Source of the DNA: a virus | DNA: 26,994 nt | IMG/VR virus record: IMGVR_UViG_3300018481_000062 | Location: 1-26,994 of that record | Reading direction: 5' to 3' (one strand) | Shown: positions 6,515 through 26,641 of the stretch, in pieces | How the letters are laid out: the number at the start of each line of letters is the position of its first letter | Numbering within the stretch: the first letter of the stretch is position 1 | Position numbers and translations under genes: made by a program | Notes under the pieces: model-generated | Seen by the model: only the letters and a program-made list of their open reading frames with translations | The model's database searches: none | Told to the model about the DNA's origin: nothing

Positions 6515-6924
6515 CAGCAAATACCTCAAATACAAATATTACCAAATTATTCAGTCTTAATCCACCACCAGTGGTACCACAACAGGAGGAGGTTGAACTA
6601 TCAGCACCAACAGTAGAGAACGATTTTACTTTCATAAGAAAAAATATTTACGAAGTAATAGAAACAGGGCAGACGGCGTTAAGCTCACTTGCCCAAATTG
6701 CGGAGCAGTCGCAGCATCCTCGAGCGTTCGAAGTATTAGCAACCCTGATGAAGACGATAGTAGAAAGCAACCGAGAGCTCTTAGACATCCAGAAAAAGAA
6801 GTTGGATCTGTCAGAGACTCAGCGCTATGGCGACAGATCTACGATAACTAATAATCTCGTAATTACAACTGCTGAACTCCAACGGATGTTAGCACAGAAA
6901 ATAGAGCCACCAGATGTCAACTAA
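6511..6924 (+). CDS. gp16: gp16 terminase small subunit
   Basis: The 137-residue product sits directly before gp17, overlapping gp15 (ATGA) and gp17 by 11 bases. It has a Pro-rich N-terminus, then two long helices (DFTFIRKNIYEVIETGQTAL and RAFEVLATLMKTIVESNREL) that form the coiled-coil core typical of the T4 gp16 family, and ends in a short variable tail. The small terminase recognises concatemeric DNA and stimulates gp17 ATPase; it forms oligomeric rings. The length is near T4 gp16 (164 aa). Identification rests on core pattern and position. Confidence 0.88.
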   Translation: MTANTSNTNITKLFSLNPPPVVPQQEEVELSAPTVENDFTFIRKNIYEVIETGQTALSSLAQIAEQSQHPRAFEVLATLMKTIVESNRELLDIQKKKLDLSETQRYGDRSTITNNLVITTAELQRMLAQKIEPPDVN

Positions 6925-8542
6925 TGGTATTGATGACGGTTATAATGGTAATATAAATCTTAAGAAAGAAAATACGCCCATAGAATGGACGATGGATCAA
7001 CTTCTAGAATATAGAAAATGTTCCCTTGATCCGCTCTATTTTACCGAGACGTATATGAAGATCATACACGTCGATTATGGGTTAATTTCATTCAAACTCT
7101 ACGACTATCAAAAAACTATGATGTCGGCGATGTTCAATAACCGTGATGTAATTATTACAACAGCACGACAGACGGGTAAGTCAACTACTACTTGTGCTTA
7201 TATTCTTTGGTATATTCTATTTCACACCGAAAAAACAGTTGCTCTTCTCGCCAACAAGGGTGAAACGGCTCGAGAAATTCTATCTAAGATTAAACTTGGG
7301 TATCAACATCTTCCAAAATGGATGCAGCAGGGCATCTCAGTCTGGAATGAAGGTTCTATAGATCTCGAAAATGGTTCTCGAGTCATTGCATGTTCTACTT
7401 CATCCGATGCGATCCGTGGTTATGCTATTAACATGCTGTTCATCGACGAAGCAGCTCACATCGACAATTGGGATGAATTCTTTACTTCAACCGCACCAAC
7501 AATTTCTTCTGGACAAACAACAAAAACTATTCTGGTTTCTACACCATTTGGTCTTAATCACTTCTACAAGATGTTTGAAGAAGCACTTCGTGGTGATAAT
7601 GACTACATTCCTATCAAAGTCATGTGGGATCAGGTTCCTGGTCGTGATGATGAATGGAAGAGAAAAACCCTTTCACAAATGGGTGGTGATGTTGAAAAAT
7701 TCGAGCAGGAACACTGTTGCTCATTTGTCGGTTCATCTGGCACATTGATCTCTGGTTGGAAGCTGAAAGAACTTCTATCTCAAAATCCTATTCAGGAAAA
7801 GAACGGTCTATATCAATATATTGCTCCTATAAGAGATCACAGATACTGTGCTATCGTGGACGTGTCTCGAGGTAAAGGACTTGACTATTCTGCGCTGCAA
7901 ATCATTGACATTACTCAGATGCCATATCAGCAGGTCTGTGTCTTTAGATCAAATATAATGACGCCTACTGATTTTACAATGATAGTCCATACTACCATAA
8001 AACAATATAACACTGCAGTTGTTCTTGTAGAAATTAATGATATTGGTGCCCAGGTTGCAGATATTCTTTTTGAAGAATATGAATATGAAAATATTCTTTT
8101 CACCGAACATGCCGGTCCAGCGGGTAAAAGAATTACTGCAGGATTTAGTAAAAATGCCGACAAGGGTGTCAGAACTACTAAAACTGTTAAAAATGTTGGA
8201 TGTTCATTGCTCAAATTGCTCATCGAACAAAATCAACTGGTTATAAATGATCTTTATACCATTCAGGAATTGAATACATTTTCTAAAAAAGCAACTTCAT
8301 ATGAAGCAGAACAAGGATGCCATGATGATCTTGTTATGTGTTTGGTTCTATTTGGATGGCTTACTTCACAACGCTATTTCAAAGAATATACGGACATAAA
8401 TACTCTTGCCGCACTTCGAGATACTACTGACGAACAACTCGCCGAAGATCTGATGCCGTTCGCCGTTGTCAATGGTCTGGAAGAAATTTATGAAACTGAC
8501 AACGGTAGGTATCCCATAATCGACACCATGTCTAATTTCTAA
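6914..8542 (+). CDS. gp17: gp17 terminase large subunit (packaging ATPase-nuclease)
   Basis: This 542-residue protein has both terminase domains. In the N-terminal ATPase, Walker A is ARQTGKST (84-91), Walker B is MLFIDEA (174-180) and the coupling motif is STPFG (209-213). In the C-terminal RNase H-like nuclease, the acidic residues are D316 (IVDVSRG), the E373-D376 region (VEINDIGAQ) and HDD (470-472). It translocates DNA into the prohead through the portal and cuts concatemers at headful. It is shorter than T4 gp17 (610 aa), mainly at the C-terminus, but all catalytic elements are present. The gene ends just before a late promoter for gp18. Confidence 0.97.
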   Translation: MSTNGIDDGYNGNINLKKENTPIEWTMDQLLEYRKCSLDPLYFTETYMKIIHVDYGLISFKLYDYQKTMMSAMFNNRDVIITTARQTGKSTTTCAYILWYILFHTEKTVALLANKGETAREILSKIKLGYQHLPKWMQQGISVWNEGSIDLENGSRVIACSTSSDAIRGYAINMLFIDEAAHIDNWDEFFTSTAPTISSGQTTKTILVSTPFGLNHFYKMFEEALRGDNDYIPIKVMWDQVPGRDDEWKRKTLSQMGGDVEKFEQEHCCSFVGSSGTLISGWKLKELLSQNPIQEKNGLYQYIAPIRDHRYCAIVDVSRGKGLDYSALQIIDITQMPYQQVCVFRSNIMTPTDFTMIVHTTIKQYNTAVVLVEINDIGAQVADILFEEYEYENILFTEHAGPAGKRITAGFSKNADKGVRTTKTVKNVGCSLLKLLIEQNQLVINDLYTIQELNTFSKKATSYEAEQGCHDDLVMCLVLFGWLTSQRYFKEYTDINTLAALRDTTDEQLAEDLMPFAVVNGLEEIYETDNGRYPIIDTMSNF

Positions 8543-8546
8543 AACA

Positions 8547-8554
8547 TATAAATA
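8547..8554 (+). promoter_or_regulatory. Late promoter TATAAATA before gp18
   Basis: This is an exact copy of the T4 late-promoter -10 element TATAAATA, 53 bases before the gp18 ATG in a 57-base gene-free gap. In T4 this element is read by host RNA polymerase carrying gp55, whose gene is in this window. A GGGAG ribosome-binding site follows at 8586-8590. Confidence 0.85.
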
Positions 8555-8599: not shown

Positions 8600-10900
8600 A
8601 TGCCATTTCAACTTTCGCCAGGCGTAAATGTAACAGAAATTGACTTAACTACTATTGTTCCTGCTGTTGCATCCACCGACGGAGCTATCGCGGGCGTATT
8701 TCACTGGGGACCAATTGGCGAGCGTGTTTTGGTTGATTCTGAAGTATCTCTTTATAATCGCTTTGGTAAGCCCGACAGCTTTAATGCAGAAACTTGGTTT
8801 ACTGCTGCCTCATTCCTTGCATATGGCAACCGCCTTTATGTATCCCGTACCGCTAACACCTCGCTTCCTACACCATCTGGGACATTCTCAATAACTGGTC
8901 CTTCAAATACAAACATTGCTTTGGTTGGTGCTAATGCTACTTTCACACCAACAACTCTTGGTGTCAATAGCCAGATGTTCACGGTCCAATCAAATAATGC
9001 CGGCGTTCCAATGGGCGTATCAGTCGTAAGTACAAATGCTACTCACGTCACTCTTTCCTCTCCAGTTACTGTTGCAGGTAACTCAGGAATCATGTTCACC
9101 ACAAAAGATAAATCAGCATATAACGCCGTTGCTACAGAAGGATTCATTGCCAACCTTGCTGCACAGGTAGTACGTAATCGTACTGATTATCTTCTCAAGG
9201 ACGGTAACTACGATACCGATGCCAACTATATTGCAAAATATCCTGGTGCTTTCGGTAACAGCCTTCGTATTTCAGTCTGTGATTCCGGTAGTCAGTTTTA
9301 TGCTGACCTTGGACTTGCAAATGACGTTATGGACGGCAGAGTAACTACAGTCGTTGGATCTAACAATGTTAGTGTTCTTCTGACACCAGGTGTTGCTTCT
9401 AACGTGACAGCTTCAAATACTCTTGCAACAACTATACATGGTTCCGTTGCAATCAACGATTATATTCAGGTCGGTAATGCTTCTATTGGTACGCAGTATC
9501 TTAAGATTACAGGTAAAACTCCTGTAACTACTAACGCAACTGCATCATACTTCACATTCACAACAGAAGATCCATACCGTCTGTCTACCGATTACACCTC
9601 CAATAATATTCCTCGTTATTGGGAATTCTATAATGTTGCCGATCTTCCTCCCGGTCAGTCTGACTTCGTTACTGCTTTTGGTAACACTGCTGCCGATGAT
9701 GAACTTCATATCGTGGTTGTCGACGACGGTGGTAAATTCTCTGGTACACCAGGAACTATTCTTGAAGTCTTCCGTGGTCTTTCTCGTGCAACTGATGCTA
9801 AAACAAATGAAGGAGCTGCTAACTACTACAAAGATGTTCTTAACCATGACTCCAAGTTCGTTTGGATGGCAAATGACCGCAGCAATGCACCGTCTGCAAA
9901 TGCTGCATATGTGACTTCATCAACAAACACTCAGGCACTTGATCTTAGATTTGCTTTTGGTTCCGATGGTGCGAATGAAAATACTGTATCCATGGGTTCA
10001 CTTGCTGCAGGTTATGATCTGTTCCAGTCTGCTGAAGATGTTGACATTTCACTTATTATGCAGGGCAAACCACGTGGTGGCGTTGATCCTAGCACAGGTA
10101 AAGTTGGATTCCAGCTTGCAAATTATATCATCGATAACATTTGCGAAATCCGTAAGGACTGTATTACTCTTATCACTCCTGAGTCAAGTCTGACTGTCCA
10201 TAATTCTGGAAATGAAGCACTCGATCTCGTAGATTGGAGAAACAATGTTCACGGATCTTCATATGCAGTTTTGGATTCCGGATATAAGTATATGTACGAT
10301 AGATATAATGATCTATATCGTTGGATCCCTCTGAATGGTGATATTGCAGGTCTCTGCGTTCGTACCGATACTACAAATGATCCTTGGTGGTCTCCTGCTG
10401 GTTACAACCGTGGTCAAATCAAGAACTTGATCTATCCTGCTTGGAATCCTCGTAAGGCATCCAGAGATATTCTCTACAAGAATGGTATCAATCCAGTAGT
10501 AACCTTTGCCGGTGTTGGAACTATTCTTTACGGTGATAAAACTCTTCTTGCAAAACCATCAGCATTTGACCGTATCAATGTTCGTCGACTGTTCATTGTT
10601 CTTGAAAAGGCAATTTCTGTCGCTGCAAGATATACACTCTTCGAGTTCAACGATGCCTTTACCCGCGCACAATTTAAGAACATGGTAACTCCATATCTTA
10701 GAGATGTTCAGGGTCGTCGTGGTCTTACCGACTTCTTGGTTGTTTGTGATACTTCAAACAATACCGGTGAAGTAATTGACCGCAATGAATTTGTTGGAGA
10801 CATCTATCTGAAGCCTGCAAGATCTATCAACTTCATTCAGTTGAACTTCGTCGCAGTTCGTACCGGCGTTGCATTCTCTGAAGTTGTTGGAAAGTTCTAA
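8600..10900 (+). CDS. gp18: gp18 contractile tail sheath protein
   Basis: At 766 residues it is longer than T4 gp18 (659 aa). The N-terminus (LSPGVNVTEIDLTTIVPAV, then GAIAGVFHWGPI) and the C-terminal domain (residues ~664-764, with TDFLVVCDTSNN at 711-722 and DIYLKPARSINF after it) are characteristic. Residues ~100-330 hold Thr/Asn/Val-rich beta domains, the variable surface-exposed part of sheath proteins. The protein polymerises around the gp19 tube and contracts at infection. It has its own late promoter and strong RBS, as expected for an abundant product. The C-terminal domain is echoed in the gene at 23688. Confidence 0.96.
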   Translation: MPFQLSPGVNVTEIDLTTIVPAVASTDGAIAGVFHWGPIGERVLVDSEVSLYNRFGKPDSFNAETWFTAASFLAYGNRLYVSRTANTSLPTPSGTFSITGPSNTNIALVGANATFTPTTLGVNSQMFTVQSNNAGVPMGVSVVSTNATHVTLSSPVTVAGNSGIMFTTKDKSAYNAVATEGFIANLAAQVVRNRTDYLLKDGNYDTDANYIAKYPGAFGNSLRISVCDSGSQFYADLGLANDVMDGRVTTVVGSNNVSVLLTPGVASNVTASNTLATTIHGSVAINDYIQVGNASIGTQYLKITGKTPVTTNATASYFTFTTEDPYRLSTDYTSNNIPRYWEFYNVADLPPGQSDFVTAFGNTAADDELHIVVVDDGGKFSGTPGTILEVFRGLSRATDAKTNEGAANYYKDVLNHDSKFVWMANDRSNAPSANAAYVTSSTNTQALDLRFAFGSDGANENTVSMGSLAAGYDLFQSAEDVDISLIMQGKPRGGVDPSTGKVGFQLANYIIDNICEIRKDCITLITPESSLTVHNSGNEALDLVDWRNNVHGSSYAVLDSGYKYMYDRYNDLYRWIPLNGDIAGLCVRTDTTNDPWWSPAGYNRGQIKNLIYPAWNPRKASRDILYKNGINPVVTFAGVGTILYGDKTLLAKPSAFDRINVRRLFIVLEKAISVAARYTLFEFNDAFTRAQFKNMVTPYLRDVQGRRGLTDFLVVCDTSNNTGEVIDRNEFVGDIYLKPARSINFIQLNFVAVRTGVAFSEVVGKF

Positions 10901-18194: not shown

Positions 18195-18202
18195 TATAAA
18201 TA
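18195..18202 (+). promoter_or_regulatory. Late promoter TATAAATA before the 189-aa gene
   Basis: An exact T4 late-promoter element 46 bases before ATG 18241, immediately after the gp23 terminator. A CAGGAGAG ribosome-binding site (around 18228-18235) follows. Confidence 0.85.
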
Positions 18203-18240: not shown

Positions 18241-18810
18241 ATGACTGATAAAATTCGATCTGCATTTCTAACCAGACTTCACAATATCAATTTTGCTGGT
18301 CATAACGTAGCAAAGCGCGTTAATGAAGAAGTAGAAACAGAAGCTGAACTTACCGTTGATGACATTGATGTAGAATCTTGGCCTGATAACGAACTTATTG
18401 AGTTCGTTGATTCTCTTGACCACGAAGAAGCCGTCGAAATGCTCTATGAAGAACTAGAAGATGTTTCTGCTGAAGAACTTCGAGAACAGGTCCGTGCTCT
18501 TCTTGAATTGAGCCCAGGTCTTCTTGGACGTTATGCCTCAGCTGCTCGTAAACAATACCGTGCAGTTCGTCCTGTATATGCTGCAGCCCGTGCTTCAGGT
18601 GATACCAGCAATAAAACAGTTGGTAAGAAAACATTTACTCCTGCTCAATTGAAGAACAATCAATCAAAGCGTAAATGGGGTAATGCCACAGCACTTCGTA
18701 AGCTAGATCTTCACAAGTCTGGAAAGTATAAGGGTGCCGCTACAAGTGAAAAGAAAGCTGCAGCCAAAGCTCCTGCAAAGAAGAAAGAACCGGCAGCCGC
18801 TACTGCCTAA
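18241..18810 (+). CDS. Acidic-basic two-part protein, candidate late head protein
   Basis: This 189-residue protein has an exact late promoter and strong RBS, so it is expected to be abundant late. Residues ~28-90 are very acidic and helical (VDDIDVESWPDNELIEFVDS, EEAVEMLYEELEDVSAEELR). Residues ~97-189 are basic and end in a histone H1-like Lys/Ala/Pro tail (KKAAAKAPAKKKEPAAA). At the junction, ELSPGLLGRYASAARK resembles the LSxKxLxSYxxK repeats of the protein at 14060. I infer a DNA- or capsid-interacting virion protein, but do not recognise the family. A gap of only 5 bases separates it from the next gene. Confidence 0.65.
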   Translation: MTDKIRSAFLTRLHNINFAGHNVAKRVNEEVETEAELTVDDIDVESWPDNELIEFVDSLDHEEAVEMLYEELEDVSAEELREQVRALLELSPGLLGRYASAARKQYRAVRPVYAAARASGDTSNKTVGKKTFTPAQLKNNQSKRKWGNATALRKLDLHKSGKYKGAATSEKKAAAKAPAKKKEPAAATA

Positions 18811-22625: not shown

Positions 22626-23684
22626 ATGGCACTCATAGCATTAATAACGGATACTCACTGGGGAGTCAGAAATGATTCTCCAGAATTTCATGATTATTTT
22701 GACAAGTTTTTCAGCACGATATTTTTTCCATATTTAGAAGCACATAACATCAAGACTATCGTCCATCTGGGGGATATGGTTGACCGCCGAAAGTACATTT
22801 CTTTTCAGACTGCTTCTCGACTTTGGAAAGACTTCACATCTAAAGTGTTAAATTATGACTTTCATTTGATCTTGGGCAACCATGATATTACATTCAAAAA
22901 CACAAACACCCTCAATGCCGCAGTCGAACTCTACAGACATGCAAACTTCAAAGTGTATGAAAATGCAACAGAAGTAACTTTGCACGGCGAGAAGTTTTTG
23001 TTCATCCCTTGGATAAATAGCGAGAACAGAGAGGCTACAAATGTACTTATCTCTTCCACTATCGCAGAGGTCGTATTTGGACATTTGGAACTCGCAGGCT
23101 TCGAAATGTATAAGGGAATTACCAATATTCATGGTGATGATCCTAGCATCTTTCGTAAGTTTTTTATGGTTTGTTCTGGGCACTTCCATCGCCGCAGCAG
23201 TGCTGACAACATCCATTATCTCGGATCGCCTTGTGAGTTTACTTGGGCGGATTTTGATGACCCTAAAGGATTCCATGTTTATGATACCGAAACGAGAGAA
23301 TTGACATTCATCCCGAACCCTTATACAATGTTCCATAAGGTGTTTTATGATGATCTCAATAAAAGCCAGGATGAAGTCTTAAATGTAGACTTCAAAGAAT
23401 TAAACGGAAGTTATATTAAGTTAATTATAACGAATAAAACAAATCCATATTGGTTTGATCTGTTTCTTTCCAAATTGGAAAAGGCAGAAGTTTCAAATAT
23501 TCAAATCGTTGAAGATCACCACAACATTCATGTTGTGGAAGATGCAGCAATTGTATCCGAAGTCGAGTCTACTATTGATATTTTCAAGAAACATATTTCC
23601 ACAACTACATATGATGCTGCACACAAGCTTGCATTAGAAAAATGTATTGTCAGCCTCTATAATGAGGCTATTTCTATGGAGTAA
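22626..23684 (+). CDS. gp47: gp47 recombination nuclease subunit (Mre11/SbcD-like)
   Basis: This 352-residue metallophosphoesterase (T4 gp47 is 339 aa) carries the motifs in order: DTHWG (9-13), GDMVDRR (49-55), GNHD (84-87), FGHLE (151-155) and GHFHRR (185-190), which bind the two metals. Residues ~270-352 form the C-terminal segment that contacts gp46. With gp46 it resects double-strand ends for recombination-dependent replication and degrades host DNA. In T4 it lies close upstream of gene 46; here one extra gene (23688-24221) stands between them. Confidence 0.95.
   Translation: MALIALITDTHWGVRNDSPEFHDYFDKFFSTIFFPYLEAHNIKTIVHLGDMVDRRKYISFQTASRLWKDFTSKVLNYDFHLILGNHDITFKNTNTLNAAVELYRHANFKVYENATEVTLHGEKFLFIPWINSENREATNVLISSTIAEVVFGHLELAGFEMYKGITNIHGDDPSIFRKFFMVCSGHFHRRSSADNIHYLGSPCEFTWADFDDPKGFHVYDTETRELTFIPNPYTMFHKVFYDDLNKSQDEVLNVDFKELNGSYIKLIITNKTNPYWFDLFLSKLEKAEVSNIQIVEDHHNIHVVEDAAIVSEVESTIDIFKKHISTTTYDAAHKLALEKCIVSLYNEAISME
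23519..23538 (+). repeat. Perfect 8-bp inverted repeat inside gp47
   Basis: CCACAACA (23519-23526) and TGTTGTGG (23531-23538) enclose TTCA. It encodes part of DHHNIHVVED, so coding constraint alone could produce it. No T tract follows, so it is not a terminator. Confidence 0.4.
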
Positions 23685-23687
23685 ATC

Positions 23688-24221
23688 ATGACACAATTAT
23701 CACGACGCAGTCTAATCAAAGGTTTAACCGCAATCTTTGCAGTTGTCACTGCTGGACCAGTCTTTATAGAATCAACAGCTGCCCTTACGAAGGTTCCTAG
23801 GGTTCCTTCTATTATGGAAATTGTTGAGATGTCCATTAAAAAGGCACTCGAACAAACTGTAGTAAAACAGAATGATTATGAAACACGAAAAGAAATATCT
23901 ACTGCTCTAGTTGCTGCAGTTCGTCCATTCCAAAATTCAAGTCAAATTTACGACTTCCAGGTTGTTTGTGATAGTAGTAATAATCGTAATGCTATTTTCG
24001 AAGCTGATCTAAGTGGTATACATGTAGATGTATATGTAAAACCAGTAGAGTCTATTGACTTCTTTCTCTTTAGTTCTGTAATAACAGAAGAAAAAGCCTA
24101 TCATGCAATTGGTGGGGTTTCTAACGGCCCGCTGTTGCCGGCGAGCGACCGCGACGACGGACTGCGCTATGACGGCAGCCTTAATACACTCATTAAAACG
24201 CCTAGTCCTTTGTTAGGTTAA
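23688..24221 (+). CDS. Tat-signal protein with a tail-sheath C-terminal-like domain
   Basis: This 177-residue protein has GGAG (23678-23681) six bases before ATG 23688. Its N-terminus is a classic twin-arginine signal: SRRSLIK (5-11), a hydrophobic stretch TAIFAVVTAGPVFI and a possible cut near STAA (29-32). Residues 42-143 align with the C-terminal domain of the window's own gp18 (~664-764): 54 gap-free positions sharing ND, TR, R, Q and DF, then VVCD followed by (S/T)SNN. Two residues are then inserted before D(V/I)Y(V/L)KP and SI(D/N)F. This is the domain that links sheath subunits. Residues ~144-165 are encoded by very GC-rich DNA. It is inserted between gp47 and gp46 with gaps of 3 and 4 bases. 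Signal and homology are seen directly; export and function are inference. Confidence 0.85.
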   Translation: MTQLSRRSLIKGLTAIFAVVTAGPVFIESTAALTKVPRVPSIMEIVEMSIKKALEQTVVKQNDYETRKEISTALVAAVRPFQNSSQIYDFQVVCDSSNNRNAIFEADLSGIHVDVYVKPVESIDFFLFSSVITEEKAYHAIGGVSNGPLLPASDRDDGLRYDGSLNTLIKTPSPLLG

Positions 24222-24225
24222 ATCC

Positions 24226-25941
24226 TTGATATTTTTTCAAAAAATAAGATGGAAAAATCTTCTTTCTACGGGTAATGCATGGACTGAAATTGATTTAACC
24301 AAGGATAAAATGACCCTCTTCGTTGGAAACAATGGAGCGGGTAAATCTACAATTCTAGATGCCCTTTGTTATGGTCTTTTTAGCAAACCATTCAGAAACA
24401 TCCGTAAAGCACAATTAATCAATTCCTCAATCAACAAGGATCTTCTTGTAGAAATAGAATTTTGTCTAAATAACAAGCAATATCTCGTTCGCAGGGGACA
24501 AAAACCTTCTGTCTTCGAGATATTTAAAAATGACAAGATGCTTGACCAATCTGCCGATGTCAAGGATTATCAGAATATCCTCGAAAAACAAATTCTCAAA
24601 ATCAACTTCAAATCATTCTGCCAAGTTGTAATTCTTGGTTCTGCAACTTTTGTACCTTTTATGTCCCTGACTACCGGCGCTCGTCGTGAAATCGTTGAAG
24701 ATTTGCTTGATCTGCAGATCTTCTCAGTTATGAACATTTTAGTGAAGGAAAAGATAACACATAACAATGAAAACCAAACAAAAAATTCTGCTCAAAAAAC
24801 TCTTCTCGAGGAGAAAATCAAACTTATTAATGAGCACATTGAAACGACTCTTAGTAACAATGAAACGCAGATAGAAACCAAAAAGAATAAAATCAAGAGT
24901 CTTATAGAAAACATCAATGATGCTACATCTAAATGTGATTTGTTGCTGATTAGGCGTCAAAATGTCCTTGATAAAATGAAGAATGGAAACAAATACAAAA
25001 AGAAATTTACCGAACTCAATCAATTTGAAAATAAGATAAACATCAAGTGCAATAATGTTGTAGGTGAAAAGACCTTTTTTGAGTCCAATGATGTATGCCC
25101 AACTTGTACACAATCCATTGATATGAAATTTAGACAAAAAGCGATCAATATGCATCTTGCTAAAATTACAGAATACAATAATGCACTAGAAGAATTAGCA
25201 GTTGAAAAGACCAAACTCGAAGAAAAACTCGCTAAAATTGAAGCTCTCGATAAGCATTTGCTTGACATATCGATGGATATTGTCCAACTAGAAACTCAGA
25301 TTAACAATTGGAAAAAACATATCGCAGAATTAGAAAGAGATTTAGATAACATCACTACTAATTTTTTCAGTATAGATACAGGTAGAATAGTTGAACTCGA
25401 AGCATCCCTAGATGAAGTTATTAAAGAATATAATGTACTTTATGAAAACAAGAAGATAATGACAGCAGCCGCAGCATTGTTAAAGGATGACGGCATCAAA
25501 TCTAAAATCATCAAACAATATGTCCCAATAATTAATAAACTGATCAATAAAAACCTTGCTGCATTAGATTTTATGTGTCACTTTGAATTGGATGAAAATT
25601 TCAATGAAACCATTTTATCACGGGGTCGTGACAATTTTTCTTACTCTTCATTCTCCGAGGGAGAAAAGTTTAGAATCAATATTGCCATATTATTTGCCTG
25701 GCGAGCTCTCGCCCGCCTTCGAAATTCAATTTCTACGAACGTGCTTATTTTGGACGAAATTCTCGATAGCTCGCTAGATCAGGAAGGAACCGATGAATTT
25801 ATGAAAGTTCTTTCAGGGTTGACTGAAGATAATAATGTATTCATAATAAGTCATAAGACTGATCAATTGATTGACAAATTCCCCAATATTCTCCATTTTG
25901 AGAAAATTCACGGATTTAGTAAAATACGAGAGTTAACATGA
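24226..25941 (+). CDS. gp46: gp46 recombination nuclease ATPase (Rad50/SbcC-like)
   Basis: This 571-residue protein (T4 gp46 is 560 aa) has Walker A GNNGAGKS (34-41) and long coiled coils (~residues 170-280 and 310-400) around a zinc hook CPTC (C291, C294). The ABC signature is FSEGEKFRINIA (476-487), and Walker B is LILDEILD (507-514) with D-loop SSLD. It works with gp47 to resect DNA ends. The start is TTG 24226 (LIFFQKIRWKNLLSTG reads as a Rad50 N-terminus), preceded by AGG at 24215-24217 in the end of the Tat gene. The stop overlaps the next ORF (ATGA). Confidence 0.95.
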   Translation: MIFFQKIRWKNLLSTGNAWTEIDLTKDKMTLFVGNNGAGKSTILDALCYGLFSKPFRNIRKAQLINSSINKDLLVEIEFCLNNKQYLVRRGQKPSVFEIFKNDKMLDQSADVKDYQNILEKQILKINFKSFCQVVILGSATFVPFMSLTTGARREIVEDLLDLQIFSVMNILVKEKITHNNENQTKNSAQKTLLEEKIKLINEHIETTLSNNETQIETKKNKIKSLIENINDATSKCDLLLIRRQNVLDKMKNGNKYKKKFTELNQFENKINIKCNNVVGEKTFFESNDVCPTCTQSIDMKFRQKAINMHLAKITEYNNALEELAVEKTKLEEKLAKIEALDKHLLDISMDIVQLETQINNWKKHIAELERDLDNITTNFFSIDTGRIVELEASLDEVIKEYNVLYENKKIMTAAAALLKDDGIKSKIIKQYVPIINKLINKNLAALDFMCHFELDENFNETILSRGRDNFSYSSFSEGEKFRINIAILFAWRALARLRNSISTNVLILDEILDSSLDQEGTDEFMKVLSGLTEDNNVFIISHKTDQLIDKFPNILHFEKIHGFSKIRELT

Positions 25942-26084
25942 CAGAAGATGATGATATTTTCAGGGGAGTGTTATCTCTTGGACTTTTAGGATTTTTAGCA
26001 TTTTGTTTTTATCTGCTCAACGCTAGCTGGCATGCTTATGCTTTGTTAATATTGGCCAATATCATATTGGGTATGCTCACATGA
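25938..26084 (+). CDS. Small two-helix membrane protein (48 aa)
   Basis: This 48-codon ORF overlaps the gp46 stop (ATGA at 25938) and the deformylase start (ATGA at 26081), so it exactly fills the gap. After an acidic N-terminus (MTEDDDIF) it has two hydrophobic segments, residues ~11-27 (VLSLGLLGFLAFCFYLL) and ~31-47 (WHAYALLILANIILGML), with a short polar turn. It would be an inner-membrane hairpin with the N-terminus probably inside. Function unknown; a holin-like or regulatory role is possible but unsupported. Confidence 0.65.
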   Translation: MTEDDDIFRGVLSLGLLGFLAFCFYLLNASWHAYALLILANIILGMLT

Positions 26085-26641
26085 AAACCGACGCAACACC
26101 CAGATCATTTACGCCAGCGGATTTAAGTTTTATGGATGTTATTCCTGCAAAGGAACAGCCACGATCTGAACGCATTATTACAGATCCAAACAAACTCAAG
26201 GAACCATGTATTCCTTTTGATTTTGATAATCCACCAATGAATCCCAGTGAACTCGCTTATAATCTTGTCAAGGAAATGCGGGACTTCAACGGAATTGGTT
26301 TAGCTGCAAATCAAATGGGGTATCCCTGGCGAGTATTTGCAATGCGATCAGATCCTAATATGGTTTGTTTCAATCCAAAAATTGTTATGCCTTCTGAGGA
26401 AACTATTGCTCTTGAAGAAGCATGTTTGTCCTTTCCTGGTTTGTTCGTCAAGGTTACTCGACCTAAACATGTTCGAGCTCGCTTTCAATTAGCAAATGGG
26501 GATACTCGTACTGAGATGTATATCGGATTGGCCGCTAGAGTATTTCAACATGAGTTGGACCATTTAAACGGCATCTTGTACTATGATCTCGCTAATAAAT
26601 ATCATCGTGACCTAGCTTTTAAACGATGGAAGAAAAAATGA
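26081..26641 (+). CDS. def: Peptide deformylase
   Basis: This 186-residue protein has the three deformylase motifs: GIGLAANQ (71-78), EACLS (113-117; usual form EGCLS, so Gly is replaced by Ala) and HELDH (157-161). Together these supply the metal ligands Cys115, His157 and His161 and the catalytic Glu158. It removes the formyl group from new N-terminal Met. Phage deformylases are known in T4-like cyanophages, where they have been linked to maturation of fast-turning-over host proteins. The N-terminal ~35 residues are an extension beyond the usual start. ATGA overlaps join it to both neighbours. Confidence 0.94.
   Translation: MKTDATPRSFTPADLSFMDVIPAKEQPRSERIITDPNKLKEPCIPFDFDNPPMNPSELAYNLVKEMRDFNGIGLAANQMGYPWRVFAMRSDPNMVCFNPKIVMPSEETIALEEACLSFPGLFVKVTRPKHVRARFQLANGDTRTEMYIGLAARVFQHELDHLNGILYYDLANKYHRDLAFKRWKKK

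Follow-up and report, generated by a model that had tools for sequence, protein, structure and literature searches.

The C-terminal domain of the tail sheath is the part that interlocks neighbouring subunits, as has been established for the R2 pyocin and T4 sheaths, and Tat leaders require or tolerate folded passengers. Proteins that interfere with tail assembly have also been described. One of them is Tab, which is encoded by a Pseudomonas prophage and blocks tail assembly by targeting the tape measure protein (PMC10884400); Tai is another protein that blocks tail assembly (PMC11364771). Like the protein that is the subject of the present analysis, Tab is small and phage-encoded. However, it acts in the cytoplasm on the tape measure protein, has not been described as a fragment of a sheath, and is no Tat substrate.

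We analysed a stretch of 26,994 nucleotides (IMG/VR record IMGVR_UViG_3300018481_000062; hereafter referred to as the window), which represents a T4-like phage fragment. Within a gene cluster of the order 55-47-X-46, the window contains an intact reading frame that we refer to as ORF X (Table 1). An earlier note on this DNA had placed this ORF precisely between genes 47 and 46 with a ribosome-binding site of its own, and its coordinates proved to be exact: the ORF starts 3 nt past the gene 47 stop, ends 4 nt ahead of the gene 46 start, and has a GGAG motif at 6 nt from its ATG. Judged by its sequence, ORF X is a three-part mosaic of a Tat-type leader, a sheath domain and captured host DNA. We consider it very probable that it represents a stand-alone sheath C-terminal domain that is preceded by a Tat-type signal and followed by recently acquired host DNA at the 3' end.

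Table 1. Positions in the window of ORF X, its predicted parts, its neighbours and the sheath gene of the same phage.
Feature	Position	Strand	Basis
ORF X: Tat leader, tail-sheath C-terminal domain and host-derived tail; 177 aa, ATG start (predicted parts)	23688..24221	+	ORF, profile and similarity searches
Shine-Dalgarno GGAG, 6 nt 5' of the ATG of ORF X, within the last codons of gene 47	23678..23681	+	sequence
Tat-type leader (predicted), residues 1-33; SRRSLIK at 23700-23720; hydrophobic residues 10-27; possible STA-A cleavage	23688..23786	+	sequence rule; phage Tat-leader HMM
Tail-sheath C-terminal domain, residues 38-145, to the natural sheath C-terminus	23799..24122	+	PF17482, phrog_23, alignment, AF2 model matched to T4 gp18
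Out-of-frame TTC TAA near the natural sheath end	24119..24124	+	frame comparison and sheath alignment; inference
Captured host DNA, 58 bp, 53/58 identical to a dgcA-like 3' end, Nitrobacteraceae; GC 70%, GC3 85%	24124..24181	+	DNA and protein matches
Gene 47, recombination nuclease subunit, 5' neighbour of ORF X	22626..23684	+	profile searches
Gene 46, recombination nuclease subunit, ATPase, TTG start, 3' neighbour of ORF X	24226..25941	+	profile searches
gp18, the complete tail sheath protein of this phage; its family is the parent of the ORF X domain	8600..10900	+	Pfam, PHROG, similarity

The sheath domain of ORF X was recognised by Pfam model PF17482 (Phage_sheath_1C) with 36.2 bits, where the curated cut-off is 26.9 (E 6.8e-9, residues 38-133), and by PHROG 23 (phrog_23, tail sheath) with an E-value of 3.8e-12, a similarity well beyond what chance would give. 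The only other match in the record was the C-terminus of gp18 (E 6.6e-11, 30% identity). The earlier note had described this alignment as gapless for 54 residues and then continuing through D(V/I)Y(V/L)KP and SI(D/N)F. Indeed, residues 38-99 align without gaps and the alignment runs on through DVYVKP and SIDF, but a 2-residue gap intervenes. In an alignment of ORF X with 19 sheaths, the VVCD-SNN core was free of gaps and the alignment extended to the natural sheath end. The AF2 model of ORF X adopts the two-helix, four-strand fold of the sheath C-domain, and for most of this domain the pLDDT is about 80. When the model was compared with the PDB, the sheaths of T4 and KP1 matched best (probability 1.00, E 3.6e-3); it should be noted that the AF2 input alignment included sheaths, so that this fold test is not fully independent. 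In the viral library, a 148-aa phage protein was the closest match by fold. The profile search and the structure prediction with superposition, both proposed in the earlier note, thus favour its view of a C-terminal sheath domain detached from the remainder of the protein.

PF17482 is the sole sheath domain in ORF X, while gp18 has both PF17482 and the subtilisin-like core PF04984. By profile, alignment and predicted fold, residues 38-145 correspond to the C-terminal domain of T4-type gp18 (PF17482, PHROG 23), but ORF X differs from gp18 in that it lacks the subtilisin-like and N-terminal sheath domains, has a leader, and is located outside the tail module. By this domain content, ORF X belongs to the PF17482 domain family without being a tail sheath protein. 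Its identity to any sheath is about 30%, and gp18 of the same phage (about 29%) is no closer than foreign sheaths. A recent duplication of gp18 as the origin of ORF X is therefore rejected.

The N-terminus of ORF X shows every element of a Tat-type leader, namely an (S/T)RRxFLK-like motif (SRRSLIK at residues 5-11), a hydrophobic region (an 18-residue stretch with a mean hydropathy of 1.84) and an AxA-like site (STA-A), which bears out the twin-arginine signal that the earlier note had read there. When 1742 ORF starts of the window and of T4-like relatives were screened, the same rule fitted only ORF X and one ORF that is antisense to annotated genes. The generic Tat model TIGR01409 gave 12.3 bits for ORF X, below its cut-off of 16.7, and PF10518 did not report ORF X in the Pfam search, a model that detects just 14 of 105 leaders of the phage class described below. 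An HMM of these phage Tat leaders ranked ORF X first among 6243 ORFs, but with an E-value of 0.086, and ORF X has no APAIVR motif. Since the generic models fall short of their cut-offs, we infer Tat targeting of ORF X on good grounds rather than regard it as demonstrated, and we consider such targeting likely.

The 3' end of ORF X has a different origin. Residues 146-165 correspond to the final portion of a dipeptide-epimerase-like enzyme of Bradyrhizobium, Afipia, Nitrobacter and Rhodopseudomonas, which we take to be dgcA-like from what is known of the enzyme family. The corresponding DNA match has sharp edges (91% identity and E 6.5e-17 in the best genome), and a dgcA-like match was present in 51 of the 392 genomes of the bacterial family at E <= 1e-12. 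The composition of this piece differs sharply from that of the sheath part, which has a GC content of 35% and a GC3 of 18%, and because of this difference the piece appears to have been captured recently. A chance match to dgcA is ruled out by the 53 identical positions in 58 bp, the E-value, the recurrence of the same gene in these genomes, and the GC content of 70% against a background of 35%. With one extra base upstream, ORF X would end in IGG?F-stop, as sheaths end in VVG(Q/K)F-stop. The sequence suggests that ORF X once ended at the TTC TAA listed in Table 1, and that it came to run on into the host piece through the loss of 1 nt in a G run or, alternatively, through a sequencing error. 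By these comparisons, the C-terminal 32 residues are host-derived DNA plus run-on and not sheath. The earlier description of a two-part product therefore holds for the leader and the sheath domain, but misses the host-derived residues 146-165.

T4-type late promoters (TATAAATA) were found at position 8547, upstream of gp18, and at position 18195, upstream of the gene at 18241, whereas no late promoter was found upstream of ORF X. This indicates that ORF X is probably made together with genes 47 and 46, ahead of the sheath, which agrees with the expectation in the earlier note of expression with early or middle rather than late genes, as does the location of ORF X in the 55-47-X-46 cluster. A perfect 6-bp inverted repeat (AGCCTC-TATAAT-GAGGCT, positions 23652-23669) is located in the end of gene 47, just 5' of the ribosome-binding site of ORF X, and could be a hairpin or a chance occurrence. 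On the other side of the cluster, a peptide deformylase gene (26081-26641) follows gene 46, as in Caulobacter phage Cr30.

Three further features belong to the structural part of the window or to its sheath. A 250-aa ORF (2205-2957) has motifs (HRLFAH, HHQHHKH, HHEQPW) that suggest a membrane fatty-acid desaturase, with no Pfam match above the cut-off. Positions 2-1147 encode the end of a tail fibre, which contains repeats and, at its C-terminus, a motif (SDIRLKRDLEPI) of the type seen in self-cleaving chaperones. Lastly, gp18 has 766 aa, about 100 residues more than T4 gp18 (659 aa), and the extra length probably stems from an insertion outside the C-terminal domain.

The earlier note had also proposed to look for the same gene between genes 47 and 46 of related phages. 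No such gene was present in this slot in any of 79 viral contigs with both genes, or in the cultured phages DLP_6, HTVC008M, phiM12 and Cr30; in relatives with both genes the slot was either empty or occupied by different small genes. Likewise, no orthologue of ORF X was found in IMG/VR, where all 29 matches were sheaths, or sheath fragments at contig edges or in broken frames. Two plasmid matches were sheaths, and the same was true for the top annotated matches among those listed for cultured phages. A second match in DLP_6 was dismissed, being the annotated baseplate wedge gene. No match to the Tat leader was obtained in six cultured T4-like relative genomes, and a tblastn search of cultured phages with the leader consensus gave zero matches, which is probably due to low-complexity filtering and does not imply absence.

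The only other stand-alone sheath C-domain that we found is gp012 of the T4-like Caulobacter phage Cr30 (YP_009098770.1; L328:2734-3060, positions 6733-7059 of the Cr30 record), a hypothetical orphan protein of 108 aa that is unannotated in function. This protein resembles ORF X in having a sheath-C-like domain on its own in a related phage, but it has no Tat or RR leader, adjoins a glutaredoxin gene elsewhere in the genome, and has a match restricted to residues ~34-92. A different kind of gene is found near the sheath of Rhizobium phage RHph_I1_18: its annotation reads 'decoy of host sigma factor' (L287:5460-6212), and it runs on the opposite strand across the 3' end of the sheath gene.

The earlier note regarded the fusion as a one-off of no known role. 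This view was not supported, because many phages carry comparable fusions of a Tat leader to part of a virion protein. A degenerate Tat-leader search of IMG/VR returned 27 contigs and a second search gave further matches, so that the numbers are a lower bound; the resulting class comprises at least 104 distinct complete phage ORFs of 70 to about 200 aa. The leader consensus of this class is RRGFLxGLxALxAAPAIVRAxSLMPV, with an RR-to-APAIVR spacing of 13 in 79 of 104 cases; the APAIVR and LM positions were imposed by the search pattern, while the RR spacing and the SLMPV(K) context were not fully imposed. In the likeliest host bacterial family the leader pattern is rare (3 of 199 genomes).

Most class members have a passenger without a recognisable relative. 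Every functionally named PHROG family that matched a passenger at E<=0.01 was a virion protein (coat, collar, fibre or sheath), and the Pfam matches were Collar (four), GP7 coat (two), head-tail connector, LamG (lectin), pectate-lyase and DUF7483. For comparison, the 25 best represented of the 67 families matched by 103 ordinary small genes of the same contigs were mostly RusA and HNH nucleases. In 7 of ~104 distinct cases the passenger was related to a long ORF at its own locus, whereas among 838 control genes there were 3 such cases (Fisher p 1.5e-5, a value to be read with caution as part of the control ORFs may be spurious). A further match of this kind in L213 was rejected as a fused-frame artefact. 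The same-locus parents of the 7 passengers were coat proteins, and different coat parts were represented, namely the N-terminus (L134, L158) and the 230-320 region (L230). Altogether, there were 8 cases of a full-length coat or portal gene in the same contig as a Tat-leader fragment. No tailspike parent was found in the genome of L186 and no second collar domain was found for the collar passengers, where it should be noted that some contigs are fragments. A sheath was present in 1 of 9 larger class contigs examined. The dN/dS values of passenger pairs across contigs were mostly 0.2-0.5, which indicates that the passengers are maintained as proteins under purifying selection. A tandem pair of Tat-leader genes with different passengers occurs within one phage (L213, L239, L144).

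The genomic positions of these genes vary. In L134 the Tat gene is located directly 5' of the coat gene, and both this gene and the Tat gene of L157 lie inside late virion modules. In a 154-kb contractile phage, the Tat gene adjoins the clamp loader gene, a replication-cluster position like that of ORF X; its passenger is pectate-lyase-like by eye and a parent was not detected. In L334, the leader precedes part of a portal protein (PF04860 E 1.9e-7; PHROG portal E 1.5e-6), and a full portal gene is located 48 kb away in the same contig.

An independent search that was built on the start of ORF X itself (pattern RRxLIKGLxA) returned 11 contigs, 4 of which encode real Tat leaders, two of these four being the same protein. 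It was this search that yielded the portal fusion of L334. Like class members with coat (L134, L158, L230), collar (L127) or portal (L334) passengers, ORF X combines an RR leader with a fragment of a virion protein, the full-length protein often being encoded in the same contig; for ORF X, the full-length relative is gp18. The class leader is usually of the type RRGFLxGL...APAIVRASSLMPVK, whereas that of ORF X is RRSLIKGL...AGPVFIESTAAL, and the class passengers are mostly non-sheath. The link of ORF X to the class rests on the architecture and the common RRxLIKGL start, the first rank with the class HMM being without significance. On this basis, ORF X is probably a T4-like case of the recurrent combination of a Tat leader with a virion fragment.

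What, then, might ORF X do? As a best guess, we infer a folded virion-domain decoy that is brought to the inner membrane by Tat. The sheath domain would fold in the cytoplasm after synthesis with genes 47 and 46, ahead of the late sheath, and the Tat leader would carry it to the inner membrane, where it would be anchored or from where it would be exported. Since Tat takes folded passengers, the domain should reach the membrane in its native form, and the need for a folded, recognisable domain would explain why Tat rather than Sec is used. At the membrane, the domain would act as a decoy of the virion protein by holding whatever recognises it; alternatively, the recogniser might be carried out as a Tat piggyback complex. 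Possible targets would be a host sensor of virion proteins (capsid, portal), the sheath subunits of a competing phage, or assembly partners of the phage itself. If this guess is correct, ORF X would work in a way comparable to phage-encoded interference proteins such as Tab. The common factor of the class would be a native-looking virion domain at the membrane, whose simplest job would be to bind a recogniser of the virion protein. However, the late-module location of several class members (L134, L157) does not suit an early decoy. We would put the probability of the whole proposal, including the identity of ORF X, its class membership, Tat targeting and decoy role, at roughly one in three. 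The decoy mechanism as such is tentative, and it is more doubtful that Tat targeting of pieces of the phage's own virion (coat, portal, collar, sheath) is a general strategy of many phages, for instance one in which decoys remove host sensors of virion proteins from the cytoplasm, with ORF X as the sheath version in a T4-like phage.

Other readings have to be weighed against the decoy. The fragment may have lost sheath-related binding and been exapted for an envelope role, as a small protein of the periplasm or membrane that would, for example, mask a receptor or change the envelope after infection. The Tat leader is consistent with such a fate, and so are the high diversity of class passengers and the low identity of ORF X to any sheath, its own gp18 included. 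However, the VVCD-SNN core has been kept in ORF X, and an unrelated role would leave the virion nature of the recognisable passengers unexplained. We consider this reading unlikely. Less likely again is that ORF X is functionless debris, left behind when illegitimate recombination brought a leader, part of a sheath and a piece of host DNA together at a variable position. The recent host DNA within the gene, the different small genes at this position in relatives, and the lack of an orthologue in IMG/VR and the cultured phages searched would all fit. Yet, the sheath part is some 70% diverged from every sheath with an open frame and the core motif retained, the ribosome-binding site is good, and comparable genes elsewhere are under purifying selection.

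It is improbable that ORF X acts specifically against contractile systems, by binding the exchanged arms of foreign sheaths (of a co-infecting phage, a tailocin or a host T6SS) and thereby blocking assembly or contraction in a dominant-negative manner. The retained domain is the one that interlocks subunits, and tail-assembly blockers such as Tab and Tai are known from prophage and host, although Tab is not described as a sheath fragment. A Tat leader, however, would remove ORF X from the cytoplasm, where sheaths assemble. Moreover, the class also uses capsid, portal and collar pieces, so that a reason specific to sheaths is not general; the use of capsid and portal fragments makes explanations based on T6SS or tailocins less likely for the class. 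Lastly, the idea that the leader alone is active, for example by occupying the Tat translocase with a folded plug made from virion domains that were merely at hand, would account for leaders that are more conserved than their widely varied passengers (including the spacing noted above), but is very improbable because the passengers are under purifying selection, their named matches are all virion proteins rather than arbitrary folds, and the APAIVR and LM conservation was partly imposed by the search pattern.

For the phage itself, the 58 bp of dgcA-like DNA are a trace that points to a Bradyrhizobium-type host of an otherwise unassigned fragment. More generally, placing Tat leaders on fragments of a phage's own particle proteins seems to be a wider, undescribed phage habit; no description of Tat-tagged virion fragments was found in the open-licence literature searched, and an account may exist elsewhere. 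Export signals on virion proteins are unexpected, and current accounts of how phages assemble, lyse their hosts or exclude other phages do not provide for a recurrent class of selected genes in which Tat leaders precede capsid, portal, collar and sheath domains, in many cases close to the full-length gene. If the fragments are decoys, they would represent a new way of handling defences that sense virion proteins, or of handling competing phages. If they are not, they would still reveal a job at the bacterial inner membrane that is new to accounts of phage biology.
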